A stretch of 10,993 bases of DNA from Chloroflexota bacterium. Its GTDB lineage: Bacteria; Chloroflexota; Ktedonobacteria; Ktedonobacterales; JACDGC01. Below the pieces are notes generated by a model. That model had not been told where the DNA came from and searched no databases. It worked only from the letters and a program-made list of their open reading frames with translations. Of this stretch, positions 1 through 10,993 are shown piece by piece. Each line of letters opens with the position of its first letter. Position 1 is the first letter of the stretch. The DNA lies in contig JAKAOI010000036.1 of NCBI GenBank assembly GCA_021812265.1, positions 1-10,993 of the forward strand. The letters run 5' to 3'. The position numbers were made by a program, and so were the translations under genes.

Positions 1-765
1 ATCTCCGATAACCTGACCAAAGGTATATAAGATGGAGCCAACCGCCGGAAGCAGAAATTTTTGCCGGGCGTTTAAAACAAATGTAGCAATAAATGATAGA
101 CCCAGCATTATCGGCTGAATAAGCATAATACGAGAAAGCTGAATTACATCATTGGCTTTTTCGGGATTATTAAATACACCATACGCAAATAAATGCGCCA
201 ACTGAGGCATAAAAATTGCGCCGAGTATTGCAAATAGGGTTAGAAGCAATGTAACAACATTAAACACAACACTGGTTATATACCATGCGCTTTTTTTATC
301 TTTTTTATTAATCATATATTCCGTAAAAACCGGAATAAAGGCAGAGCTGAGCGCCCCACCGGCAATTAAATTGTATATTGCGTTCGGCAAGGTAAACGCC
401 AATGTAAAAGCGTCGGCAGCATTAGATGGGCCAAAGGTAGCGCCAAATAATGTGGTTCTGAATACACCGAGTATCCGACTGATAAAAAATGATGAGGTAA
501 TAATAAACGCCGCAACTGCCATTTGATCGCGTTTCAGCGCCTTCATAGACATAGAAGGCTGGCTGACATCTGGAGCAGCAGCGCTGGGTATACGGATAGT
601 CAACGCATCTAAATCCAAATCATAGGGCAAACTGTCATATGCAGTGCTATACATACTTTGAGAAGGATCCCCGCGCAAGCGAATCGTAGGCGGTATATAA
701 TCAGGAGCAAAAGGATAATTTGCCGATGATTGATCCTGTTGGTTTCGCTGAGGCTGCTCGTGCAT
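1..765 (-). CDS. murJ: MurJ/MviN-type lipid II flippase, N-terminal 255 residues (runs off left edge)
   Basis: Polytopic membrane protein expected to flip lipid-linked peptidoglycan precursor (lipid II) across the cytoplasmic membrane. The sequence shows the MurJ family start: a first membrane segment with SRILGVFRTTLFGATFG (about residues 96-112), then DAFTLAFTLPNAIYNLIAGG and GALSSAFIPVFTEY (about 118-150), followed by further hydrophobic segments (about 162-188 and 213-231). The C-terminal half lies outside the window. About 78 residues rich in Gln, Pro, Ser and Asp precede the first membrane segment, whereas most MurJ proteins begin close to it. I chose the ATG at 765 because AAGAGG lies 9 bases upstream (775-780). 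The ATG at 783 has no ribosome site and lies almost at the predicted transcript start. Family assignment is confident; the extension's role is unknown. Confidence 0.9.
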   Translation of the reverse strand, partial: MHEQPQRNQQDQSSANYPFAPDYIPPTIRLRGDPSQSMYSTAYDSLPYDLDLDALTIRIPSAAAPDVSQPSMSMKALKRDQMAVAAFIITSSFFISRILGVFRTTLFGATFGPSNAADAFTLAFTLPNAIYNLIAGGALSSAFIPVFTEYMINKKDKKSAWYITSVVFNVVTLLLTLFAILGAIFMPQLAHLFAYGVFNNPEKANDVIQLSRIMLIQPIMLGLSFIATFVLNARQKFLLPAVGSILYTFGQVIGD

Positions 766-791
766 CCGTAAAAACCTCTTCATGTATTTTT

Positions 792-820
792 ATTATAGGA
801 TAGTCGATTGAACCATTTAA
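792..820 (-). promoter_or_regulatory. Predicted murJ promoter with perfect TATAAT -10 box
   Basis: On the minus strand TATAAT occupies 797-792. A weak -35 candidate, TTAAAT (820-815), lies 17 bases upstream. Transcription would begin near 785, leaving a leader of about 20 bases before the ATG at 765, just enough for the AAGAGG ribosome site at 780-775. The -35 match is poor, so this rests mainly on the -10 box and its position. Confidence 0.5.
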
Positions 821-972
821 AGGATATCACACATACAATGTTTGCATAAAAGAAATTAGGAGCGCCGAGTATCTGCCGCTGCCCTTTATGCATTTGTGAT
901 ATGCCTGTGCAATTGAAAGTTCCAAAGTTTCAGCAAATTAAAATTGAGTTGGTGGTAACAGTATATATTCGC

Positions 973-1042
973 GCATATTGTATCACAGATATTATTTTGG
1001 GGATATCTATCCGCCAATATGGCCAATTGCGATACAATATGC
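973..1042. repeat. 12-bp perfect inverted repeat upstream of lepB
   Basis: GCATATTGTATC (973-984) and GATACAATATGC (1031-1042) are exact reverse complements separated by 46 bases. They lie in the stretch between murJ and the preferred lepB start. They could form a long-looped RNA hairpin in the lepB leader or be paired protein-binding half-sites. The rest of 784-1086 is AT-rich and I see no gene or clear promoter for lepB in it. This stretch is open in the lepB frame from 901, but its translation looks unlike a protein and lacks a ribosome site. Confidence 0.55.
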
Positions 1043-1086
1043 ACAGAAGGCTGTATACACGCTATTTGATTGAAAGATTAGGTATC

Positions 1087-1713
1087 ATGCAAAAAAAATT
1101 ACCCGCTAAAACATCTCAAAATGATCTGCAGGAATTTGCTTATACAACAAAATATGCGCCGAAACATACGTGGGGATTTGCGCGCGAAATTCTTGAAACA
1201 ATTTTTTTAAGCGCCATCATGTTTTTAGTCATCAATGTATCTATTAAAAGTGTTCAAGTTGATGGTATAAGTATGTATCCAACATTGCATAACAGCCAAT
1301 TTGTTATCGTAGATCGTTTGGCGTATGTGTTTAGTAATCCCAAACGAGGAGATATTATCGTTTTTGAATATCCACTGAATCATTCCGTTGATTATATTAA
1401 GCGCGTTATCGGAATACCTGGGGATACGGTTACGATTAACGCAAATGGCACAGTTTTAGTAAATGGCGTGCAGTTAAACGAACCATATATCAATAATATG
1501 GGCAACCCCTACGGAGCAGAGAAAATAACGCTCGGAGTAAATCAATACTTTGTGTTGGGCGATAATCGGCAGGAAAGCTCCGATTCACGCGATTGGGGAA
1601 CCGTAAACCGCAGCCTTATCATCGGGCAAGCGAAAATTGTTGTTGCTCCGCTGAGCGACTTCCATTTTCTCCCCGATGAATCAGCTGTGTTTTCACAGAT
1701 TCCCGCGCCATAA
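1087..1713 (+). CDS. lepB: Type I signal peptidase (LepB/SipS family)
   Basis: Membrane-anchored serine protease that removes signal peptides from secreted proteins on the outer face of the membrane. Counting from the ATG at 1087 (208 aa), there is one membrane segment at about 34-53. Box B follows, with GISMYPTL carrying the nucleophile Ser62. Box D, YIKRVIGIPGDTV, carries the general base Lys105. Box E, VLGDNRQESSDSRDWG, is also present. The Ser-Lys spacing of 43 fits the short Gram-positive type rather than E. coli LepB. The frame is open back to an ATG at 901 (270 aa) with another at 1039, but neither has a ribosome site and the added residues match no family feature. The 1087 start has only a weak TTAGG. 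It converges on accC, with 71 bases between the stop codons. Confidence 0.93.
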   Translation: MQKKLPAKTSQNDLQEFAYTTKYAPKHTWGFAREILETIFLSAIMFLVINVSIKSVQVDGISMYPTLHNSQFVIVDRLAYVFSNPKRGDIIVFEYPLNHSVDYIKRVIGIPGDTVTINANGTVLVNGVQLNEPYINNMGNPYGAEKITLGVNQYFVLGDNRQESSDSRDWGTVNRSLIIGQAKIVVAPLSDFHFLPDESAVFSQIPAP

Positions 1714-1726
1714 TCTTTACAAACAG

Positions 1727-1759
1727 GCGGCAATCAGAACATCTCGTACAGATTGCCGC
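1727..1759. terminator. Stem-loop between convergent lepB and accC, possible terminator
   Basis: GCGGCAATC (1727-1735) and GATTGCCGC (1751-1759) form a perfect 9-bp stem with a 15-base loop in the 71-base gap between the two convergent genes. Neither side has a good T-tract. On the minus strand it is followed only by CTGTTTGT. It may act as a weak bidirectional transcription barrier. The position is suggestive but termination itself is not shown. Confidence 0.4.
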
Positions 1760-1784
1760 GTCGCAGTTACCGCAAAAATACTGT

Positions 1785-3362
1785 CTATATACTGCGGCGC
1801 CAGCCAAGACCGGTAGATTTCCAGCGGCTGACAGATTGCGCCGGCGCAGTTTCTTCTGTATTCGAAACACCGTGGCTGCCTGTCATCATTTCTATAGCAG
1901 CCAGCGCCGCCATAGCTTGGCTATGTGTCAACCCAACATACGACGGATCTGATAAAATTTCCGCGCCATTTTTTATTTTTTCTGCGTCGACGTCCCATGT
2001 TTCAGCAATAAAACCAGTAGAAAGATCTGCCGCAATAAAGCGCGGATGCTCCATAATATATATAGCAAACGGGATGGTGGTTTTTAATCCGATTATAGAA
2101 TATTCCTGCAGCGCCCGTTTCATGCGTGTAATAGCCTCATCTCTGTTTGCGCCCCACACAATCAGCTTCGCCAGCAGTGAATCATAGTATAGAGAAACTT
2201 CAGCGCCGCGAAACAATCCGCTATCCACACGCACTCCCGGCCCTTGGGGTTCATGAACTTCTTGCACAAAACCGGCGCTTGGCAAAAATTTATTCAAAGA
2301 ATCTTCCGCCGTAATACGGCATTCAATAGCGTGGCCGCTGAAATGAATATCTTCTTGCCGAAAAGAGAGCGGAAGACCACCAGCGACACGAATTTGCTCT
2401 TTAACAAGATCAATTCCTGTGCGCAGTTCTGTAACAGGGTGTTCAACTTGAAGACGGGTATTTACTTCCATAAAATAAAAGTTTTTTTCATTGTCAAGCA
2501 AAAATTCAACGGTGCCGGCGCTCACATACCCTGCATGTTTTGCAATATTTACGGCGGCCGCAGTAATTTCATTGCGCAAAGCGTCACTCAAAACAGCAGA
2601 AGGTGTTTCTTCAACCAATTTTTGATTGCGGCGCTGCAACGAACATTCGCGTTCACCTAAATGCGCCACATTGCCATAGGCGTCACCAAAAATCTGCACT
2701 TCGATATGCCGCGCCGGTTTAATGGCTTTTTCCAAATACACACGTTCATCATTAAAGGCGGCTTTTGCTTCAGAGCGCGCCAGCCTCAGGGCGTCTTCCA
2801 AATCTTCCGGGCGATATACAAAGCGTATTCCTTTGCCGCCGCCGCCAGACGCGGCTTTCAGCAATACAGGGTATCCGATAGAATCGGCAAGACGTTTAGC
2901 CTCAGCGGCGTCGGCGATATCATGATTTACTCCGGGAGGAATCGGCGCATGCGCCTGTAAAGCAACATTTCTTGCGGAAGTTTTTTCTCCCAAAAGCCGC
3001 TGAATATGCGCCGGAGGGCCGACAAATATGATGTTGGCGTCGGCGCAGGCCTGCGCAAAATCAGGATTTTCTGATAAAAATCCGTACCCGGGATGGATTG
3101 CGCTGGCGCCAGTTTGTTGGGCAGCCGCAATAAGTTTTGGTATATTTAAATAACTTTGGCTGGCTTGCGGCTCTCCAATGCATATAGCGTCATCTGCTTC
3201 CCGCACATATAAAGAACCGCGGTCCGCAAAACTATATACAGCGATAGAGCGTATTCCCATATCCTTACAAGCGCGAATAATGCGCAAGGCAATTTCTCCC
3301 CGATTGGCAATTAAAAGCGATTGAATCGGAAAATCTTCCGGAAGTTTCTCAACAGATTGCAT
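1785..3362 (-). CDS. accC: Biotin carboxylase subunit of an acyl-CoA carboxylase
   Basis: Uses ATP and bicarbonate to carboxylate the biotin of a carrier protein, the first step of acetyl-CoA (or propionyl-CoA) carboxylation. The order of motifs is canonical: N-terminal LLIANRGEIALRIIRACKDM (16-35), HPGYGFLSEN (90-99), the ATP-grasp lysine at 169 with the glycine loop SGGGGKG (172-178), GERECSLQRRNQKLVEE (236-252), and the catalytic stretch MEVNTRLQVEHPV (298-310). At 525 aa it is longer than the ~450 aa of E. coli AccC. It has about 13 extra residues in front and a tail of roughly 60 after the core, ending WKSTGLGWRRSI. No carrier (accB) or carboxyltransferase gene is adjacent, so acetyl- versus propionyl-CoA specificity is open. 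GAAAGG lies about 10 bases before the ATG at 3362. Confidence 0.95.
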   Translation of the reverse strand: MQSVEKLPEDFPIQSLLIANRGEIALRIIRACKDMGIRSIAVYSFADRGSLYVREADDAICIGEPQASQSYLNIPKLIAAAQQTGASAIHPGYGFLSENPDFAQACADANIIFVGPPAHIQRLLGEKTSARNVALQAHAPIPPGVNHDIADAAEAKRLADSIGYPVLLKAASGGGGKGIRFVYRPEDLEDALRLARSEAKAAFNDERVYLEKAIKPARHIEVQIFGDAYGNVAHLGERECSLQRRNQKLVEETPSAVLSDALRNEITAAAVNIAKHAGYVSAGTVEFLLDNEKNFYFMEVNTRLQVEHPVTELRTGIDLVKEQIRVAGGLPLSFRQEDIHFSGHAIECRITAEDSLNKFLPSAGFVQEVHEPQGPGVRVDSGLFRGAEVSLYYDSLLAKLIVWGANRDEAITRMKRALQEYSIIGLKTTIPFAIYIMEHPRFIAADLSTGFIAETWDVDAEKIKNGAEILSDPSYVGLTHSQAMAALAAIEMMTGSHGVSNTEETAPAQSVSRWKSTGLGWRRSI

Positions 3363-3403
3363 TTTTTATAAACCTTTCTTGCAAAATTTTTTTAGTTTTT
3401 TTC

Positions 3404-3432
3404 ATCATAAACCTTTTTAAAAAGAACTTCAA
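3404..3432 (-). promoter_or_regulatory. Predicted accC promoter (TTGAAG - 17 bp - TATGAT)
   Basis: Minus-strand TTGAAG (3432-3427) and TATGAT (3409-3404) are separated by exactly 17 bases, a good housekeeping-sigma promoter. Transcription would start near 3397, about 35 bases before the accC ATG. The spacer contains the 12-bp palindrome CTTTTTAAAAAG (3413-3424), which could be an operator or chance in AT-rich DNA. Confidence 0.6.
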
Positions 3433-3437
3433 GATCG

Positions 3438-3616
3438 CCGGTTTTAGCTTACTCGAAAGCAAGCTATTCTCCTAGAAATCGAAAAATTACACTAAGAAAA
3501 CCGGACAAACAGGCGATCGCCTGTTCCACGTGAAACCAGGCGTAGCCTGGGCTGGAGAGAAATTTAGTTCTAAGCGCTGTTCCAATAAAATTTCTAACTC
3601 TAGTTTCGTCCAACTA
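3438..3616. repeat. Cluster of nested inverted repeats and palindromes
   Basis: Within about 180 bp there are six inverted repeats. They are CCGGTTTT (3438-3445) with AAAACCGG (3497-3504); inside that, TAGCTT (3445-3450) with AAGCTA (3461-3466); the perfect palindrome CAGGCGATCGCCTG (3510-3523); CCAGGC (3536-3541) with GCCTGG (3545-3550); AGAAATTT (3558-3565) with AAATTTCT (3588-3595); and TAGTT (3601-3605) with AACTA (3612-3616). A parS-like site sits at the centre. The density suggests a folded element: a repeat family, a MITE-like remnant, a structured RNA or a protein-binding region. Which one cannot be told from a single copy. Confidence 0.6.
3522..3537. promoter_or_regulatory. parS: parS-like centromere site (ParB binding)
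   Basis: TGTTCCACGTGAAACC matches the widely conserved bacterial chromosomal parS, TGTTTCACGTGAAACA, at 14 of 16 positions, including the whole CACGTG core and the GAAAC half. The left half, TGTTCCAC, equals that of the known variant TGTTCCACGTGGAACA, so this is a hybrid of two known half-sites. It is intergenic, as many parS sites are. It overlaps by two bases a perfect 14-bp palindrome and touches a 6-bp stem on the other side. In other bacteria such sites load ParB and then SMC/condensin near the replication origin. parA and parB are not in the window. Confidence 0.65.
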
Positions 3617-3699
3617 AAAATACGTAAACCAATTATCACTGCCAATGAAAAAAATTTAGATCCGCATAGATACACGAGTTATAATGGGAGATTTTTTTG

Positions 3700-3816
3700 A
3701 TGGCTTTTGCGCAGTATAATTTTGGGGATGGCAATATACTATGCGGCATTTTTATTTTTGTCGGTATAGATTATATTTTGTGGTCATGTTTTTTTTGCGC
3801 CGCTCGCGTCTCATAA
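3700..3816 (+). CDS. Doubtful 38-residue hydrophobic small protein
   Basis: ATG at 3700 opens 38 codons to TAA at 3814-3816. GGGAG (3686-3690) lies 9 bases upstream. The product is hydrophobic (ILCGIFIFVGIDYILW and CFFCAA) with three cysteines, and could be a single membrane helix. A perfect TATAAT at 3680-3685 lies just upstream, but it would start transcription near 3692, after the ribosome site, so the two signals do not fit together. I recognise no family. T-rich DNA readily encodes Phe/Ile/Leu by chance, so confidence is low. Confidence 0.2.
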   Translation: MAFAQYNFGDGNILCGIFIFVGIDYILWSCFFCAARVS

Positions 3817-3991
3817 TTTTTTGCAGACATTAGCAAAAACAACATTAAAAACGAAAAATGTTTGGCAGACACCATCCCAGTCTTCACAGACCATGCCGCG
3901 CGCGAGGTGAATCACTGCCGCGTATTTACCTGTTTGACAGCGCGGATTGAGCAATTCATTTTGTGAAATATAAGATTGGGGGCAGTGAAAC

Positions 3992-4024
3992 AAAAAAAAA
4001 GCGCGCCAGGGTTACCCGGCGCGC
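3992..4024 (-). terminator. Strong intrinsic terminator after the 635-residue gene
   Basis: Read on the minus strand, a 7-bp GC-only stem (4018-4024 with 4001-4007) continues after one unpaired base into 3 more pairs around a 3-base loop. A run of nine T (4000-3992) follows at once. It begins 15 bases past the stop codon at 4040. This is a textbook Rho-independent terminator and ends the minus-strand unit. Confidence 0.93.
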
Positions 4025-4039
4025 GCGGCATGGCAACGG

Positions 4040-5947
4040 CTATTTTTTCTGCGTATTGGCAGATGATTGGCGGGAGTTACTCTGAAAAGGCCACAAACGC
4101 CGCTGCTGTGGTTTCACATCACCTATAGGCTCGGCTGTATCAGCAGTTATTTGTTCATCGGGTTCCGGAGCCGGAATGGGTCGTGCGCCGGCTGGCGCTT
4201 TCAATGCCGCTGAGGGCACAACAGGCGTTGCGGCGTCTCCTGAAGCGGCGCGATTTTGTAAGCGGCGCTGCAAGGCAGTTATTTTTGATTGCTGTAAATT
4301 TTCATCGACAAACTGCGGGCGAATGTCATCTTTGTTTTGTACGGAAACCGATAAAAACCGATAATTATCTAATTCCACTTCAAATGTCGGCCCTTTAAGC
4401 ACCGCGCGCTGCTCGCCGCGTTTTGCAGGATTAGCAATTTTTAAGCCCAGTCGCCGCAGGGGAGCGCTTTCGCGGGGCAGCCATAACAGCTGCGCCAAAA
4501 TACGCAATTCATCAAACGATTCTAACGTTTGCAATTGCTCAGCGCTGCCGGTGGCTATCATACGCTGCGCCAAATTTGCGCGCGCCGTTTCTAGTTTTTG
4601 CAAGGAAGTGTCACTGCCGGGATCCCAATCTTCATCGGTTAGCAGCGCAGATGGCGGCGGGGGAATGGAAGCGCGCTTGCGCGGCAGATACGATCGCAGC
4701 CAAGTTTCTTCATCTACCAGCGGCAAAGCAGAACCACCTTTGCCTTCCAGCCAGCGATCCAGTTGAATACGTTCATCGGAAGACGGCTCATCTTGCGTCC
4801 ACAGCGCAGCGTGAACAGATCCCGAAGCGTTCCAAAGCCATACACGCGCGTCTTGCAGTGTATCGGCGTTTCCTTCAGCCAGCAAACCTGCTCGCCGTGT
4901 CAGCGCGTCGATGGCTTGAGTTTGCTGCAAGCGAAGCGCAATAGCAGTGTGAATACGCTCGGTTAACTCAACCAGCGCCAAAGATATTAAACGAATGCCA
5001 TCACGCCAAGAACCACTGCCTATATCGCTTGTCAATCGTTCAAAAAACTGAATTTCGTGTGTAGTTTCTACGCCAATTGCTTCTATGCGCGCGGCGCGAT
5101 CTTCCTCGGTTTCCCCTAAGCCAACACTCCACTCATCCTCATGTATGCGCAGTGTTTTTTGCAGCAGCAAAATCATCTTCCCGTCATGCGGCTCATCTTT
5201 TAATCGGATAACTCTTGCGCGGGCCATTGCCGCGCCTTCATGCGCCACGCGATAAAATTTATCATACAGCATACCCAGTCGATCTGCCACATCGGCCAAA
5301 ATTTCTGGATGATTGGGATCAACAGTAATGGAGCGAAGTTCGCGGGCAAAATCATGTGATTCGCGGCTGACGCCATGTAAACTTTGCCGTGCGGTTTGCC
5401 ACGCGGTAAAGCAGCGCAAAGAATCGGGTGAAGGCTCTGCCAATTCCGCCAGCAGCATATCCAGCGCGGCTGCGGCTTGGGCAAAATAATTTGCAGAAAG
5501 ACTGACGAAACGGCGGCGCAGCGACCGCTGCACATCGTCCCAATGCGGCAAAAACACTCGCATGGGCCGACCCAGCGCATAATCGCGCTCTACCCGGCGG
5601 CGCAACCCGCCGTCTATTCTGGCGCGCTGTGGCGCAATTGCTGAATCTACCGCATCCCAAGACTCCAACTGCCGCAGAATATCTGCGCAATCGGCTGATA
5701 TATCATCCGGCTCAGGCTCACCGCGATAGCGCAAAACAGCGCCAATATCCGCCGCAAGTTCATCTAAAGATATCCCTACTTCACCATCTAATTCATACTG
5801 TCGCAGCGCAGCAACAATTATTGCGCGGCGCTGCCGCCGACCCTCTGATTCATCTCCGGCAAAAATTCTTAAAAAATCTGTCTGACCGGAAAGCAGCGCA
5901 TTTGCTTCTCGTGATAAATCAACTATCCGTACATCTGTCATTGCCAT
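4040..5947 (-). CDS. Large charged protein, tentatively kleisin-like (JetA/DUF2397-related)
   Basis: I do not recognise this 635-residue protein with certainty. It is soluble, with no signal peptide or membrane segment. Residues about 35-100 (RRQRRAIIVAALRQYELDG, then SLDELAADIGAVL, then ADCADILRQLESWDAV) read like a winged-helix domain. Long amphipathic helices follow to about 380, with PPPP near 429-432 and a compact segment ending in a beta-like stretch (TFEVELDNYRFLSVSV, 521-536). The tail from about 565 is low-complexity Ala/Pro/Gln. Winged helix plus helical middle plus a Trp/Pro-containing end resembles DUF2397-type JetA, the kleisin-like subunit of Wadjet SMC complexes. This is inference from pattern only, and no JetB, JetC or JetD is adjacent. 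The ATG at 5947 follows AGGGGAGG by an unusually long 14 bases; the ATG at 5941 is further still. The gene is visibly richer in GC than the flagellar genes. Confidence 0.45.
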   Translation of the reverse strand: MAMTDVRIVDLSREANALLSGQTDFLRIFAGDESEGRRQRRAIIVAALRQYELDGEVGISLDELAADIGAVLRYRGEPEPDDISADCADILRQLESWDAVDSAIAPQRARIDGGLRRRVERDYALGRPMRVFLPHWDDVQRSLRRRFVSLSANYFAQAAAALDMLLAELAEPSPDSLRCFTAWQTARQSLHGVSRESHDFARELRSITVDPNHPEILADVADRLGMLYDKFYRVAHEGAAMARARVIRLKDEPHDGKMILLLQKTLRIHEDEWSVGLGETEEDRAARIEAIGVETTHEIQFFERLTSDIGSGSWRDGIRLISLALVELTERIHTAIALRLQQTQAIDALTRRAGLLAEGNADTLQDARVWLWNASGSVHAALWTQDEPSSDERIQLDRWLEGKGGSALPLVDEETWLRSYLPRKRASIPPPPSALLTDEDWDPGSDTSLQKLETARANLAQRMIATGSAEQLQTLESFDELRILAQLLWLPRESAPLRRLGLKIANPAKRGEQRAVLKGPTFEVELDNYRFLSVSVQNKDDIRPQFVDENLQQSKITALQRRLQNRAASGDAATPVVPSAALKAPAGARPIPAPEPDEQITADTAEPIGDVKPQQRRLWPFQSNSRQSSANTQKK

Positions 5948-6044
5948 ATCTGCGAAAAAAGCCTCCCCTGCGCCGCTGACGATTTATATTTCTCGCGGCT
6001 TCGCTGCCATATATATTGTTAGTGTAGCATTCAATCACCATTTT

Positions 6045-6059
6045 TACCATTTTATGGTA
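6045..6059. repeat. Small inverted repeat between the sortase gene and the 635-residue gene
   Basis: TACCAT (6045-6050) and ATGGTA (6054-6059) are perfect arms with a 3-base spacer, in the 131-base gap after the sortase stop. On the minus strand no T-tract follows, so it is a poor terminator for the sortase. A weak minus-strand promoter (TTGAAT 6034-6029, 17 bases, TATGGC 6011-6006) lies just downstream, so it may instead be an operator for the next gene. Confidence 0.3.
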
Positions 6060-6078
6060 TTCTTTTCTCTTTATATAT

Positions 6079-6765
6079 CTATGCCGGGGCAGCAATAACA
6101 ACATATCGCATGCTATCTACACCAAATGGATAACAGGTAAGCAGGGTTAAAATCGGCGTATCGGAGTTATCCAAAATCGATAAATCATTCGGGGAGACAA
6201 TACGAATTTGGCTTACTTTAAATCTTTCTGAACCGGTAGGAGTTTGCACATAAATAGGAAAACCAATCTGTAATTTATCAATATTTCTGAAAGCCATATT
6301 TCCATGGGAATATAACATGGAATTTCCGGCGGCGCCCGGATATGCAGAATAGATAAAGTGAGTTACCGTCATTCCTGGAGCAACTACCATCCAACCTTGT
6401 TCCAGCCCTCTTTCAACAATAGGGACATTAATATTAATTGCTGGGATAATCAATCGCATAACAGAAGTTTTATCCAGGGGAGTTGTTTGGTAACTAATCA
6501 TCTCATTATTAAATTGCTGCACAGTCGATTGCAGTGACGAGGCGGGAGTAGTTGTTTTAGACGGCAGCGTAGAATTTGCGTTTTTGCTGGATCCGCTGCT
6601 GCTGGTTATTTTTTGCGCCGGCAGCAAATGCAAGGATGGCGCTAATTGATAGAGGGAAACACCACCAACGGCGCCAAAGATCAATGCCGTACATAACGTT
6701 ATTGCTAATTGTACGAACATAGCGCGTTTTACGGCGCGTGTACTTTTTTTACGAAGGTTCGCCAT
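6079..6765 (-). CDS. Sortase family transpeptidase
   Basis: Membrane-anchored cysteine transpeptidase that cleaves a C-terminal sorting signal and joins surface proteins to the cell wall or to each other. The 228-residue protein has a basic start, one membrane segment (about 18-39) and a Ser/Thr-rich linker (about 53-85). The sortase beta-barrel then carries the three catalytic residues: His154 (MLYSHGN), Cys211 (ILTLLTCYPFG) and Arg220 (DSMRYVV). The TLxTC motif makes the family call secure. It is not a clear class A or B enzyme, and I would place it loosely with class D/E-like forms. GAAAGG lies 9 bases before the ATG at 6765. The gene begins 15 bases after the FliT-like gene, so they are probably co-transcribed. 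No LPXTG-type substrate is encoded in the window. Confidence 0.92.
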   Translation of the reverse strand: MANLRKKSTRAVKRAMFVQLAITLCTALIFGAVGGVSLYQLAPSLHLLPAQKITSSSGSSKNANSTLPSKTTTPASSLQSTVQQFNNEMISYQTTPLDKTSVMRLIIPAININVPIVERGLEQGWMVVAPGMTVTHFIYSAYPGAAGNSMLYSHGNMAFRNIDKLQIGFPIYVQTPTGSERFKVSQIRIVSPNDLSILDNSDTPILTLLTCYPFGVDSMRYVVIAAPA

Positions 6766-6780
6766 ACTAAAGAGCCTTTC

Positions 6781-7131
6781 TCAGCTCCGGCGTTCAGCTT
6801 CCTTTCGCAAAGCATTATACGCGCCGCTGTAAGACGCAACCGCCGCAGAACCACGCTGCAGCGCCGAGAGCCGTTTACGAATTGTGTTTTGTGCAGATTT
6901 GCCCAATTCCAAAGTGGCATTGTCCAAATCAAGTAAATCGCGCAACTCCGTAACAATATCCCTGCGTTGATCTTCATCAACATCCCGGCTCAGTGTTGTT
7001 ATACTGGCAATAATGATCCCGCGTTCATCAGCTATGTGTTTTGCTTCAGCAATATTTTCCTGTGCAAACGCCAGCTGAATTTTTTCGGTTAACTGCCGAT
7101 ATTTCCGACATAATTCTCCAAAATCATCCAT
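6781..7131 (-). CDS. FliT/FlgN-like flagellar export chaperone (putative)
   Basis: A 116-residue, all-helical, highly charged protein with heptad-like patterns: CRKYRQLTEKIQLAF, then KHIADERGIIIASITTL, then ELRDLLDLDNATLEL. Size and pattern fit FliT or FlgN, which hold late flagellar substrates (FliD, FlgK/FlgL) before export. In many flagellated bacteria fliT directly follows fliS, and here it is the next gene after fliS on the same strand, 184 bases on. Its sequence alone would not identify it, so the call rests on neighbourhood plus helical character. AAGGA sits 8 bases before the ATG. The C-terminus (about 88-116) is basic and Ala/Ser-rich. Confidence 0.6.
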   Translation of the reverse strand: MDDFGELCRKYRQLTEKIQLAFAQENIAEAKHIADERGIIIASITTLSRDVDEDQRRDIVTELRDLLDLDNATLELGKSAQNTIRKRLSALQRGSAAVASYSGAYNALRKEAERRS

Positions 7132-7198
7132 GACTATAATCCTTCTTGCTGTGTTTCTCCAATCACACTATATACGATAGCCTCGACATACATCAGCG

Positions 7199-7240
7199 CA
7201 AACGGCTTTTTTGAGCAATATATACAAAAGAAGCCGTTTG
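7199..7240. repeat. Long stem-loop between the FliT-like gene and fliS
   Basis: CAAACGGCTT (7199-7208) and AAGCCGTTTG (7231-7240) are perfect 10-bp arms. After a one-base bulge the T-run (7209-7212) pairs four more bases with the A-run at 7226-7229. On the plus strand TTTTGCTTCTT follows. On the minus strand, in which both neighbouring genes are read, there is no T-tract, so it may be a processing or stabilising hairpin in the fliS-fliT transcript or a barrier to antisense transcription. Confidence 0.5.
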
Positions 7241-7265
7241 TTTTGCTTCTTATAATATGTCAGCT

Positions 7266-7304
7266 AAAACATCTGCGCTACGCGCCCTTGCGGACGCATA
7301 GCGC
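7266..7304 (-). terminator. Possible weak terminator after fliS
   Basis: Arms 7295-7304 and 7275-7284 pair at 9 of 10 positions around a 10-base loop, starting 11 bases past the fliS stop on the minus strand. Only four T (7269-7266) follow, five bases from the stem, so it would be weak or leaky and some read-through into the FliT-like gene is likely. Confidence 0.35.
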
Positions 7305-7315
7305 CAGTGTTGTAT

Positions 7316-7786
7316 TTATCTGCGCATTGTAATTGCGACACCATTTGAAACGCCTGAAACACCGGCGCCTTCAACAGATTGAATAGCATATTTCCAAGCG
7401 TCGGTTAACGATTCAATATAAGGCAGCAGCTCATCAAGAATATCCGCTGATTTCTGAATATTGGCGTCGAGCAGCCGCCGCATTATATACGCATAAATCT
7501 GCCGCAGACGCTCCGAAACATCACCGGCGTTCATATCCAGTGTAGCGTCTAATTCAGCAAAAATATCTTGCGCACGTCGAATATTAACATGAGCTTCTTC
7601 GATATTTTTTGCATAAATTGCAATACGAGCTTGTTTTAGATATCTTTGCGAGCCTTCATACAACATAACCACTAAGTGGCCCGGTGAAGTGGTAAGAGTT
7701 TGAGTTTCCTGATATTGTTTTGATATTTTCTGAGCTTTGGCGCGCGCTAAAGCAGCTTGCGCCGCATTTAATGCCGTAGGTGACAT
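7316..7786 (-). CDS. fliS: Flagellar export chaperone FliS
   Basis: Four-helix cytosolic chaperone that binds the C-terminus of flagellin and prevents premature assembly. The 156-residue protein shows the FliS core: KQYQETQTLTTSPGHLVVML then YEGSQRYLKQARIAI (about 22-57), and the later helices IRRAQDIFAELDATLDM and LRQIYAYIMRRLLDANI. I chose the ATG at 7786 because GGAGGA lies 6 bases upstream. The frame is open 20 codons further to an ATG at 7846, but those residues lack a ribosome site and would start at about the predicted transcript start. A C-terminal tail of some 20 residues (SVEGAGVSGVSNGVAITMRR) extends past the core. The gene diverges from flbD. Confidence 0.9.
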   Translation of the reverse strand: MSPTALNAAQAALARAKAQKISKQYQETQTLTTSPGHLVVMLYEGSQRYLKQARIAIYAKNIEEAHVNIRRAQDIFAELDATLDMNAGDVSERLRQIYAYIMRRLLDANIQKSADILDELLPYIESLTDAWKYAIQSVEGAGVSGVSNGVAITMRR

Positions 7787-7851
7787 TACTTCCTCCGTTT
7801 CAAATATCCATTTGATAAAAATATCTCTGGCATACATCAGATGCACTGTGC

Positions 7852-7879
7852 ACTATACTAATTCGGAAAAAAATAACAA
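7852..7879 (-). promoter_or_regulatory. Predicted fliS promoter (TTGTTA - 16 bp - TATAGT)
   Basis: Minus-strand TTGTTA (7879-7874) and TATAGT (7857-7852) are separated by 16 bases. Transcription would begin near 7845, some 60 bases before the fliS ATG. It resembles a housekeeping rather than a flagellar sigma-28 or a sigma-54 promoter. I saw no convincing example of either in this divergent region. Confidence 0.45.
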
Positions 7880-7966
7880 GAAATAAAGGGCGTTTTTACC
7901 CGGCGTTGGCCTTATTACCCAATTTTCTTCGCCACAAATTTAACCGTTGCGGCAGTATTTTTGTGA

Positions 7967-8008
7967 CTATTGTACATGGCGGCCTTTAGGATCGGATCTG
8001 TACAATAG
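7967..8008. promoter_or_regulatory. 10-bp inverted repeat upstream of flbD (operator or leader hairpin)
   Basis: CTATTGTACA (7967-7976) and TGTACAATAG (7999-8008) are perfect reverse complements. Each holds the small palindrome TGTACA. The arms are offset by 32 bases, close to three turns of B-DNA, which suits two bound proteins on one face of the helix. The right arm also contains TACAAT, a possible -10 box for flbD, though without a -35. It lies 33 bases before the flbD ATG in the divergent fliS/flbD region. Confidence 0.5.
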
Positions 8009-8041
8009 ATGTGAGTCTATGTAAGAAAAGAGGCCAGAAAG

Positions 8042-8341
8042 ATGATCTTGCTGACACGATTTGATGGAGCAAAATTTTATATAAATATTGATTTCATTGA
8101 ATTTATCGAAGAAACACCAGACACTATGCTTTCTTTAATCGATCACAAACGCATTTTGGTTCGAGAAAGCGCTAATGATGTTGTTGGTAAAATAACCGAA
8201 TATCTCCGATCAATTTATCGCGGCAACACAGGCTCTGGCGGCAGAATAGCTATGATAACCCAAAATCAGGCGCAGGCAGAGCATTCGGAAAAAGAATGGC
8301 AGACGGAACATTTGCGTGACGCTAAAGGTGAGGGCGCATAA
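8042..8341 (+). CDS. flbD: FlbD/SwrD family flagellar protein
   Basis: Small cytosolic protein found beside motAB in many flagellated bacteria. In Bacillus the homologue SwrD raises flagellar motor power. The first ~62 residues are typical: ILLTRFDGAKFYINIDFIEF, then EETPDTMLSLIDHKRILVRE, then a helix VVGKITEYLRSI. The protein is 99 residues, about 30 longer than usual, through a polar Gln/Glu-rich tail. AGAGG lies 8 bases before the ATG. The stop codon directly abuts the motA ATG (TAAATG), so translation of the two is likely coupled. This is not the unrelated Caulobacter regulator also named FlbD. Confidence 0.9.
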   Translation: MILLTRFDGAKFYINIDFIEFIEETPDTMLSLIDHKRILVRESANDVVGKITEYLRSIYRGNTGSGGRIAMITQNQAQAEHSEKEWQTEHLRDAKGEGA

Positions 8342-9145
8342 ATGGATATTTCTACCCTGCTTGGTTTAATCCTTGGTTTTGGCTCATTAATAGTCTCCGT
8401 TTTAATGGAAGGCGGATCTCCGCTATCGTTTTTGGCGCTCAGCGCTATGTTGATTGTATTTGGCGGAACATTTGGCGCTACCCTCATTTCTTATCCAATG
8501 GATGTAGTAATGACATTGCCAAAATTATTTTCCATTGCGTTGAAAAAACAAGATTTTGATGAACACAAATTAATTAAAGATTTTGTCGGCATGGCAGAAA
8601 AAGCGCGTAAAAATGGCTTGCTTTCATTGGAAGATGAGGCTAAATTAATAAAAGATACATTTACACAGCAAGCCGTTATGTTAGCCATAGACGGAACCGA
8701 AGCTGAAACGCTAAAAGAAATTCTCGAATCTCAAATAGATAGTATGGCGGAACGACATGAAGTAACATTTGGTATGCTGGAATCTATGGGAGGTTTTGCC
8801 CCAACTATGGGTATTATTGGAACCGTGATGGGGCTTGTGCATGTACTTAGTAATTTATCCAACCCTAATTCACTCGGCCCTAAAATCGCGGTTGCTTTTA
8901 TTGCAACATTATGGGGAGTTATGAGCGCCAATTTATTATGGATTCCAATTGGCGCAAAATTAAAACGAAAAAGTCACCATGAAGTGTTTTTTAAAACATT
9001 GGTTATTGCCGGTATAATGGGGTTGCAATCAGGCGATAATCCACGCATTATCCAGCAAAAATTAGAAGGAATGGTGCCTGCTGACACGAAGAAAAAGTCC
9101 GGTAAAAATGCTGAAGGTGGCGCGAAAGAGCAGAAAGCCGCTTAA
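8342..9145 (+). CDS. motA: Flagellar motor stator protein MotA
   Basis: Cytoplasmic-membrane stator subunit that with MotB forms the ion channel driving rotation. The 267-residue protein has four membrane segments (about 2-22, 29-50, 150-171 and 182-204) and a large cytoplasmic loop between the second and third. The rotor-facing charges Arg89 and Glu97 lie in KARKNGLLSLE. The conserved proline Pro154 (GGFAPTMGIIGTVMGL) corresponds to E. coli Pro173, and a later proline is in WIPIG. The Lys/Ala-rich tail is usual. GAGG lies 8 bases before the ATG, inside the end of flbD. The coupling ion (H+ or Na+) cannot be decided safely. fliN, not motB, follows 47 bases on. Confidence 0.97.
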   Translation: MDISTLLGLILGFGSLIVSVLMEGGSPLSFLALSAMLIVFGGTFGATLISYPMDVVMTLPKLFSIALKKQDFDEHKLIKDFVGMAEKARKNGLLSLEDEAKLIKDTFTQQAVMLAIDGTEAETLKEILESQIDSMAERHEVTFGMLESMGGFAPTMGIIGTVMGLVHVLSNLSNPNSLGPKIAVAFIATLWGVMSANLLWIPIGAKLKRKSHHEVFFKTLVIAGIMGLQSGDNPRIIQQKLEGMVPADTKKKSGKNAEGGAKEQKAA

Positions 9146-9192
9146 TTAGGATATAATCACAATAACTCAATGGAATGGGATAGATAAACTCA

Positions 9193-9852
9193 ATGTCAAC
9201 GCCAGGATCTGATGACGAAAAAAAAGCAAGTGACGAGATTTCTGCCGATGAATTAGCGGATTTGTTTGGGAAAGAAAACGCTAAAACACCTGCAGAAAAA
9301 TCTGCTGCTCCGGAAAAAAAAGAAGAGAAAATGGAAGATTTTATCTCTGCCGATGAATTGGAAGCAATCGGTCAGTTAACAAAATCTTCTGCGCAGCCAT
9401 CTGCACAGCCACAAACGCCGACGCCGACACAGCCGCAAGCGCAAACACCATCACAAGATGAAATCGATAAATTACTCGGTAAAACTACAACTTCAGCGCC
9501 AACTCCACCACCACCATCAGTCACAGATATTCCACCGCAAAATACACCCACATATCTTCCGCCAAATTTTGCAGGTTTATCTCCGCAAACACAAAATAAT
9601 GCCGAATATGATAATGGTATAGAACTATTAATGGATGTGCCGCTGACTGTTAGCGTTGAACTCGGCAGAATTACTATGACATTGCAGCAGATCCTAAGTG
9701 TTGGACGGGGAACCATCATTGAACTTGAACGCCTTGCCGGTGAACCGGTTGACATTTTAGTGAATGATAAATTAATCGGACACGGAGAAGTCGTTGTGGT
9801 TGATGAATATTTCGGAGTAAAAATTACCGATTTAATTGACTCGAAAGGATAA
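9193..9852 (+). CDS. fliN: Flagellar motor switch protein FliN with triple FliM-like N-terminal motif
   Basis: C-ring protein of the flagellar switch. The C-terminal SpoA domain (about 143-215) is canonical: LMDVPLTVSVELGRITMTL, ILSVGRGTIIELERLAGEPV, then DILVNDKLIGHGEVVVVDEY. The first ~140 residues are unusual. Three acidic motifs, ISADELADLFG (16-26), ISADELEAIGQ (51-61) and PSQDEIDKLLG (86-96), lie exactly 35 residues apart, joined by Lys/Glu-rich and then Pro/Gln/Thr-rich linkers. They resemble the SQDEIDALL peptide at the start of FliM (and FliY), which binds phosphorylated CheY. At 219 aa the protein is well above the ~100-140 aa of simple FliN and shorter than FliY. No CheC-like phosphatase domain is seen. 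The ribosome site is weak (GGGATAG), but no better start exists. Confidence 0.93.
   Translation: MSTPGSDDEKKASDEISADELADLFGKENAKTPAEKSAAPEKKEEKMEDFISADELEAIGQLTKSSAQPSAQPQTPTPTQPQAQTPSQDEIDKLLGKTTTSAPTPPPPSVTDIPPQNTPTYLPPNFAGLSPQTQNNAEYDNGIELLMDVPLTVSVELGRITMTLQQILSVGRGTIIELERLAGEPVDILVNDKLIGHGEVVVVDEYFGVKITDLIDSKG
9238..9480 (+). repeat. Three in-frame motif copies at 105-bp period inside fliN
   Basis: Copies start at 9238, 9343 and 9448, exactly 105 bases apart. The first two share 16 of 17 bases (ATTTCTGCCGATGAATT against ATCTCTGCCGATGAATT). The third is related only at protein level (DEID against DEL). DNA identity of the first pair suggests a fairly recent duplication or selection on both codons and protein. 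Confidence 0.75.
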
Positions 9853-9895
9853 CAAACCGGATAAATAACAGATATATCTGGTTGGTGTGAAATGA

Positions 9896-10624
9896 ATGGC
9901 TCGCAAAAAAAAAGCAGCAAAAGAAAATAACGAGCGATGGCTTTTAACATATGCAGATTTAATTACACTGCTGATGGTTTTCTTTGTCCTTTTATTTGCC
10001 ATGTCAAAAACTGATTCACAAAAATTTCAAGAACTTGCGCAATCGTTGCATTCCGCTTTAAGTCCCAACATTTTTACTTCCAGCAATACCAACCCAATTG
10101 CGCTTCCAACCCAATCGGGCGGCCCCAATAGCATCATTGAATCACAGATATTTACACAGATCAGCGCGATGATTCAGCAGATTAGCCCCACAATACCCAG
10201 CTCTCAAGTTTCTGTTAATTACAGCAGCGATGGCATAGATGTAACACTTTCCGGCGATATGCTGTTTTATAATGGCACAGATATTATGAAGCCCGATGGG
10301 GTTTTAATCTTAGAAAAATTAGCGCCGATTCTCAATTCCATACCCAACGATCTTGAAGTGCAAGGCAATACCGATAATGTTCCCGTTGGCAGCGCGCAAT
10401 ATCCCACAAATTGGGAACTTTCCGCTGCGCGAGCTGTTGTCGTTGTTCGCTACCTTTCAGAGCAATTAGGTGTCTCTCCTCAGAGACTTTCCGCTATTGC
10501 GTTTAGTCAGTATCATCCGATAGTTCCTAATACATCCCGCGCAAACCAAGCAATGAACCGCAGAGCAGTGATTGTTATATTGTATGGATCAAATGCGCAG
10601 GTAAGCCCAACAGCAACACCTTAA
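9896..10624 (+). CDS. motB: Flagellar motor stator protein MotB
   Basis: Single-pass stator subunit that carries the ion-binding aspartate and anchors the stator to peptidoglycan. The 242-residue protein has a basic start, then WLLTYADLITLLMVFFVLLF with Asp21 as the ion-binding residue (E. coli Asp32). A plug/linker region follows (about 38-115), and then an OmpA-like peptidoglycan-binding domain (about 125-236): QGNTDNVPV, NWELSAARAVVVVRYL, RLSAIAFSQYHPIVPN and NRRAVIVIL. The usual GHTDN reads GNTDN here. The start at 9896 is preceded only by a weak GGTGTGA. An overlapping ATG at 9892 is out of frame. It follows fliN by 43 bases and precedes fliL by 16. Confidence 0.96.
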   Translation: MARKKKAAKENNERWLLTYADLITLLMVFFVLLFAMSKTDSQKFQELAQSLHSALSPNIFTSSNTNPIALPTQSGGPNSIIESQIFTQISAMIQQISPTIPSSQVSVNYSSDGIDVTLSGDMLFYNGTDIMKPDGVLILEKLAPILNSIPNDLEVQGNTDNVPVGSAQYPTNWELSAARAVVVVRYLSEQLGVSPQRLSAIAFSQYHPIVPNTSRANQAMNRRAVIVILYGSNAQVSPTATP

Positions 10625-10640
10625 TATTTACAGGAACAAT

Positions 10641-10993
10641 ATGATGAACAATAAAAAAGTATTATTATTTGGCGGTATCGGAGCAGGCGTATTAATTATC
10701 GCGCTGGCGGCAACTTTTTTTTTGATTGCTCCTAAATTAGGCAAATCTGCAACAACCGTTGTAAAAATTGAAACACCTATTTCACATTTTCAGCTTGGAT
10801 CCACATATACCATGCAAACTCGTGTTGTTAACCTTGCAGATCCCGGGGCAACCCGCTATTTACAAATTCAGGTTGTGTTAGAATTTTCCGATCCGCAAAG
10901 CAAGGTTAGTTCTATAGTTGCAGCGCGTGAAGTTGTGCTGCAAGATATTTTGACAACAATTTTGGGAGCCGAAACGACTTCAGATCTGCAAAC
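10641..10993 (+). CDS. fliL: Flagellar basal body-associated protein FliL, 3'-truncated by window end
   Basis: Membrane protein that surrounds the stator and supports torque. The visible 117 residues show a short basic start, one membrane segment (about 8-30), then the periplasmic FliL domain: a strand ending in YTMQTRVVNLAD, RYLQIQVVLEFSD, and the helix VVLQDILTTILG. The last third is outside the window. AGGA (10632-10635) lies 5 bases before the ATG at 10641 and 8 before the ATG at 10644, so either may be used. It follows motB closely, as is common. Confidence 0.92.
   Translation, partial: MMNNKKVLLFGGIGAGVLIIALAATFFLIAPKLGKSATTVVKIETPISHFQLGSTYTMQTRVVNLADPGATRYLQIQVVLEFSDPQSKVSSIVAAREVVLQDILTTILGAETTSDLQ

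Follow-up and report, generated by a model that had tools for sequence, protein, structure and literature searches.

The stretch of DNA considered here, referred to below as the window, comprises positions 1 to 10,993 of a contig (JAKAOI010000036.1) from a Chloroflexota bacterium of the family JACDGC01 within the Ktedonobacteria, whose genome assembly spans 2.68 Mb in 469 contigs and is 80% complete. Four flagellar genes, flbD-motA-fliN-motB, follow each other on its forward strand. The gene flbD (8042..8341; FlbD, 78.8 bits) opens the run, motA (8342..9145; MotA_ExbB, 106.7 bits) is located directly upstream of fliN (9193..9852; 219 aa plus stop), and motB (9896..10624; MotB_plug, 79.8 bits; OmpA, 48.5 bits) is located directly downstream, followed by an incomplete frame which, by eye, looks like fliL. 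The order motA-fliN-motB (8342-10624) is kept in all six genomes of the family, and searches with narrow patterns, within approximately 1.5 kb, did not return it at nine other Chloroflexota loci. On the reverse strand, the window further encodes a 635-aa protein (4040-5947) for which Pfam gives nothing above cut-off and neither NCBIfam nor PADLOC gives a match, and, near fliS- and fliT-like genes, a sortase (6079-6765) which scores over the cut-off of TIGR01076, with no class model over its own.

The product of the 9193-9852 frame is a FliN protein with a low-complexity N-terminal arm. Its C-terminal domain matches Pfam FliMN_C at residues 145-215 with 86.2 bits (cut-off 23.8), the protein matches the NCBIfam model TIGR02480 (fliN) with 99.6 bits (cut-off 84.05), and a separate FliM of 355 aa, the second FliMN_C match, is encoded in the same genome on contig C431. 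The models for FliY remain below their cut-offs (NF005995, 123.3 bits versus 218; NF006272, 80.2 versus 219), and Pfam returns FliMN_C only for the whole protein, with no CheC domain separating the motif from the SpoA domain. Among solved structures, the FliMN_C domain matches the FliN-type chains 1o6a (E 2.8e-25) and 1yab (E 8.4e-25); in bit scores, this FliN reaches 92.9 with 1o6a and 73.3 with the FliN chain of 8umd.

The arm of this FliN contains three short motifs, separated by linkers of biased composition. The motif 1 region (residues 12-27; 9226..9273) includes the core ISADELADLFG at residues 16-26 and is followed by a Lys/Glu-rich linker 1 (residues 28-46; 9274..9330). The motif 2 region (residues 47-63; 9331..9381), with the core ISADELEAIGQ at residues 51-61, precedes a Pro/Gln-rich linker 2 (residues 64-84; 9382..9444), and the motif 3 region (residues 85-96; 9445..9480), with the core PSQDEIDKLLG at residues 86-96, is joined by a Pro/Thr-rich linker 3 (residues 97-141; 9481..9615) to the FliMN_C (SpoA) domain (residues 142-219; 9616..9849), all on the forward strand. 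The original prediction had read this frame as a FliN carrying, on a low-complexity arm, three motifs at residues 16, 51 and 86 that resemble the CheY-binding peptide of FliM and recur at an exact period of 35 residues. The FliN assignment is confirmed by the Pfam and TIGR02480 matches, and the three motifs can be read in the frame. The segment SQDEID itself begins at residue 87, but the aligned decapeptide PSQDEIDKLL starts at residue 86, so that the 35/35 register holds in this FliN.

The likeness to the FliM peptide holds for one of the three motifs and is poor for the other two. In the published FliM motif, LSQxEIDxLL, the Ile-Asp pair is needed in Caulobacter, where its replacement abolishes reversals (PMC5677366). 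Motif 3 equals this consensus except at position one, where Pro is found instead of Leu, and the core SQxEIDxLL is present as SQDEIDKLL (residues 87-95); the core is absent from motifs 1 and 2, in which the Gln and Ile-Asp positions differ (ELA and ELE for EID). Residues 1-141 of this FliN were scored with BLOSUM62 against LSQEEIDALL and compared with the best score in each of 20,000 shuffles: motif 3 scores 30, which was equalled in 1 shuffle, motif 2 scores 18 (equalled in 855) and motif 1 scores 14 (equalled in 4,379). Furthermore, a strict profile built on 15 distinct motifs taken from FliM in other genomes assigns 19.3 bits to motif 3, reached in none of 5,000 shuffles, and returns no score for motifs 1 and 2. 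By the shuffle and profile scores, the FliM likeness of motif 3 is thus firm, whereas that of motifs 1 and 2, considered by themselves, is weak. Judged by their sequence, motifs 1 and 2 are degenerate and motif 3 is of the canonical EIDALL type.

The case for motifs 1 and 2 as real features comes from their conservation across relatives, not from scores within a single protein. The relatives are the best 28 of 869 proteins found by phmmer, of which the best 120 were listed, cut at a gap in E-value from 7e-31 to 1e-25 and including this FliN (P0001); they share ancestry and are hence not 28 independent trials. A motif pair is present in 24 of the 28, and the pair statistics refer to these 24, leaving out four proteins with one motif (P0019, P0020, P0023 and P0028). 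The commonest residues are DEIS.[DE]ELAALLG in the first motif of the pair and D-E-I-S-A-[DE]-E-L-A-A-L-G in the second. At a score of at least 16, the 28 relatives contain 52 motif hits, compared to 3.3 expected from shuffles, and two or more hits occur in 23 of them, the shuffled maximum being 1. The pair was found in all six family genomes, which represent four genera. By reading, three motifs are present in four of the 28 relatives (P0001, P0002, P0004 and P0016), and the canonical motif 3 only in P0001 and P0002, both of this genus, P0002 being nearly the same protein as the FliN of the genus mate. Relatives grade toward the canonical form (ISNEELEALLS, ISSEELEALLG, ISPEELNALLNGG; PSQDELDKLFG in P0096), and in 23 of the 24, motif 1 is more similar to the EIDALL motif of FliY than to the helix of CheC. 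Two near-identical motif copies in each of P0009 and P0015 indicate that copies duplicate. When the motif region of P0016 served as the sole query, the search returned only P0016, and we place no weight on it with regard to motif spread.

Selection on the arm was assessed by comparing the codons of this fliN with those of the genus mate, that is, in one genome pair. The 45 motif codons contain a single replacement (Asp to Glu), with dN/dS values of 0.009/0.427 (approximately 0.02), versus 0.233/0.604 (approximately 0.39) in 78 linker codons; in the 78 codons of the FliMN_C domain, with 1 nonsynonymous and 19 synonymous changes, the values are 0.006/0.443. Nonsynonymous and synonymous changes number 0 and 2 in motif 1, 0 and 3 in motif 2, and 1 (the Asp to Glu replacement) and 4 in motif 3. 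For the linkers they amount to 7 and 2 in the 19 codons of linker 1, 9 and 8 in the 21 codons of linker 2, and 12 and 6 in 38 codons of linker 3, a further 7 codons of which are gapped. In this genome pair, the motifs are under purifying selection and about as strongly constrained as the folded domain. The original prediction had hinged on conservation of the motifs in close relatives, and when counted, this is found for the pair and, for motif 3, within the genus only. The exact 35-residue period fared less well: the spacing of motifs 1 and 2 in the 24 relatives ranges from 25 to 56, with a median of 35 and exactly 35 in five, and the nearest relative has spacings of 35 and 37. The exact period is a peculiarity of this species, and we reject it as a functional feature.

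A FliN match was obtained in 44 of 400 Chloroflexota genomes. FliN occurs in all six family genomes and in none of 20 order-mates among those listed, and a 2026 paper describes flagellar and chemotaxis genes as enriched in the family JACDGC01 of Ktedonobacteria (PMC13374853). FliN-type proteins of other groups, among those read here, mostly have one motif or none. Outside the family, 38 Chloroflexota genomes have a FliN match; 26 of these loci were opened and 25 FliN read. Three of these 25 (G112, G175 and G252) have a motif with a score of at least 20 in the first 60 residues, none has two motifs at this score, and two hits at a score of at least 16 are found in G175, G058 and G176. From FliY and FliN of genome contigs, mostly of Bacilli and Spirochaetes, 79 loci were taken, 7 of which were unreadable; the 72 counted comprise 69 with one canonical motif and 3 with none. 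Another group, consisting of P0056 and P0121-P0163 (n=44) and cut by hand where the motifs stop, lies among the best 120 of 1394 proteins listed. Among these matches, a canonical-type motif begins at residue 6 in 43 of the 44 and at residue 7 in one (the next row, P0164, with 118 aa and E 5e-35, is without motif, and including it gives 44 of 45), and a second, degenerate copy, e.g., SDDDLSALLGD, is present in 15 of the 44 at score 16 and in 8 at score 20. P0175 has two canonical-like copies. Given the P0056 group and P0175, this family is not the only one in which the motif has multiplied on FliN. Without P0056, FliN with two motifs outside the family amount to 15 of 47 at score 16, 1 of 47 at score 18 and 0 of 47 at score 20, a count which leaves out domain-boundary hits (19 of 48 with them).

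Possible partners of the arm are encoded in the same genome. FliM (start MPEEAMSQEAIDRLL) matches solved FliM chains, and the pattern [ST]-Q-x-x-I-D-x-L-L is kept by FliM in all five family genomes with a readable start, the start in G002 being cut by a contig end. As FliM has retained its own motif, a point that the original prediction had raised, the motifs of FliN are additional to it. In FliM of four family genomes, Ala takes the place of the first Glu in EID (SQEAID, TQEAID), and a fifth family FliM has SQDDID (set L002:658-1725, L144-L148); motifs 1 and 2 of FliN, in contrast, retain this Glu and lack Ile-Asp. A CheY gene, on which the proposed docking likewise depended, is present: a CheY-like receiver of 118 aa is encoded beside CheC, CheD and CheB in a che cluster which also holds CheW, an 843-residue CheW-domain frame that is probably CheA, and a further frame that looks like CheR. 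A close homologue of this CheY is found in all six family genomes including this one, 79-99% identical in the other five and partial in G002. The nearest solved structures are the CheY chains 1tmy, 1u0s and 4iga, the last of which contains CheY with FliM residues 1-16 (PMC11087270). A degenerate DNA pattern for [DE]-x-I-S-x-[DE]-E-L matched at 28 places in the six genomes, 12 of them in fliN, with 2 matches for the reversed control. Use of the octamer elsewhere in the genome was also considered, and rejected: for the 16 places outside fliN, 12 loci were inspected and ten frames read, none of which is flagellar by eye; they resemble the translation factors EF-G and BipA/TypA and peptidase-like, membrane and beta-lactamase-like proteins.

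Several features of this arm are shared with known switch proteins. Motif 3 is like the N-terminal peptide of FliM (LSQxEIDxLL) at every fixed position except the first, and like it sits on a tether before a C-ring domain, but it is found on FliN, at residue 86 rather than at the N-terminus, with two degenerate copies ahead of it. FliY of Bacillus and Thermotoga, which combines an EIDALL motif with a CheC domain, has in common with the present protein a FliN-type domain together with an EIDALL motif, whereas here the CheC domain is absent and there are several motifs rather than one. The FliN proteins of E. coli, Salmonella and Thermotoga share the FliMN_C domain and differ in the motif-bearing arm; to our knowledge, they lack such a motif array. 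The P0056 group resembles this FliN in combining a canonical-type motif with a degenerate copy, but the order is reversed, with the canonical copy first there and the degenerate one after it. FliY already provides an example of a FliN-type protein with a CheY-binding motif (PMC9126983). The repetition of the motif on FliN appears to be the new part: among the open-licence papers returned by our searches, judged by titles and opening abstracts, none describes repeated docking motifs in FliN.

Docking of CheY at N-termini of FliM and FliY, and a two-step model of switching, are in print (PMC9126983; PMC7355467): CheY-P binds these N-termini via EIDALL, and this initial step of the two serves to concentrate it (PMC9126983). 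A FliM1:FliN3 unit has likewise been described, as has a site for CheY on FliN of E. coli (PMC7355467), and in the Salmonella ring each FliM is accompanied by three FliN (PMC11087270). We propose, with a probability of roughly 0.55, that the FliN arm is a multi-site arm which concentrates CheY at the switch. The multivalent arm of the original prediction is supported in part, its raised affinity for CheY-P being an inference. In an otherwise ordinary C-ring FliN, the low-complexity arm would have been turned into a string of docking motifs of the EIDALL class of FliM and FliY, hanging from the base of the C-ring. With approximately three FliN per FliM and three motifs per arm, several docking sites would exist per single FliM motif; at a 3:1 ratio, nine FliN motifs, of which three are canonical, would accompany every FliM tail. 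CheY-P would be caught by its alpha4-alpha5 groove, kept near the ring and then handed to a second, switch-triggering site on FliM or FliN, and the multivalency would raise the local concentration of CheY-P or steepen switching. Considering the motifs individually, motif 3 probably binds CheY, and motifs 1 and 2 may do so weakly, at odds that we put slightly below even; the missing Ile-Asp pair, the failed strict profile and the near-shuffle scores speak against docking by these two. Furthermore, FliY of T. maritima reportedly binds activated CheY no more strongly than inactive CheY, which counts against the docking reading (PMC7355467).

The functions could also be split, with motif 3 and the FliM motif binding CheY and motifs 1 and 2 forming a family-specific docking pair for another client, e.g., an assembly ATPase of the FlhG kind or another response regulator. 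FlhG is described as binding the N-terminal 36 residues of FliY in Bacillus and Geobacillus (PMC12327844). Motifs 1 and 2 have a tight pattern of their own, DEIS.[DE]ELAAL, distinct from EIDALL, and other clients do exist in view of 40 receiver-domain matches in the genome; however, motif 1 of several relatives grades into the EIDALL form. FlhG in particular is weakened as a candidate, since FlhF, its usual partner, exceeds the curated cut-off in none of the six family genomes (two of which, including this one, are approximately 80% complete), and we regard the split as unlikely.

We consider it rather improbable that motif 2 is not a docking motif but what remains of the first CheC helix in a FliN descended from a FliY that lost CheC, even though eight FliY rows have an EIDALL motif followed, 28-48 residues on, by a CheC-like start such as LTPEEIDALGEIGN, and the best NCBIfam match of the whole FliN is the FliY model NF005995, under its cut-off. 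Compared with the CheC helix, EIDALL and motif 1, motif 2 of this FliN obtains scores of 24, 17 and 19, respectively, and it is one of 9 among the 24 relatives in which motif 2 is closer to the CheC helix than to EIDALL; in the other 15 it is nearer to EIDALL or tied, and in 19 of the 24 it is nearest to its own motif 1, over both references. The near-identical copies in P0009 and P0015 also argue against such a relic, and none of the listed motif 2 copies continues with GEIGN. That the arm is a mere spacer without binding function, its motifs being compositional accidents, would fit this single protein, in which motif 1 does not rise above shuffles and motif 2 barely does, but the contrast in dN/dS between motifs and linkers and the recurrence of the pair in four genera and in most relatives make this very improbable.

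If the arm does serve as a multi-site docking arm for CheY, it touches on the two-step model, in which the main role of the FliM tail is to concentrate CheY-P for the second site. Motors with extra tails of this kind on FliN would then put the model to a test set up by nature, as docking motifs differ among species in number and quality and the folded domain does not change. Such an arm would further imply that EIDALL-type motifs on FliN can multiply and decay, and hence that FliN belongs in motif counts when chemotaxis circuits are deduced from genome sequences. A wider and more doubtful idea, offered tentatively, is that FliN arms form an antenna for CheY-P, in which hundreds of graded, mostly weak C-ring sites would buffer and concentrate CheY-P, with motif number and degeneracy tuning switch sensitivity, and which would have evolved more than once, in this family and in the P0056 group. 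Among other FliN, P0035 and P0040 have LNQELIDQMLN or LSQELIDQMLN, then LQAEIDAAR, and the type [LN/S]QELIDQMLN followed by LQAEIDAAR or similar (P0035, P0040; G175, G252) is perhaps another two-motif arm.
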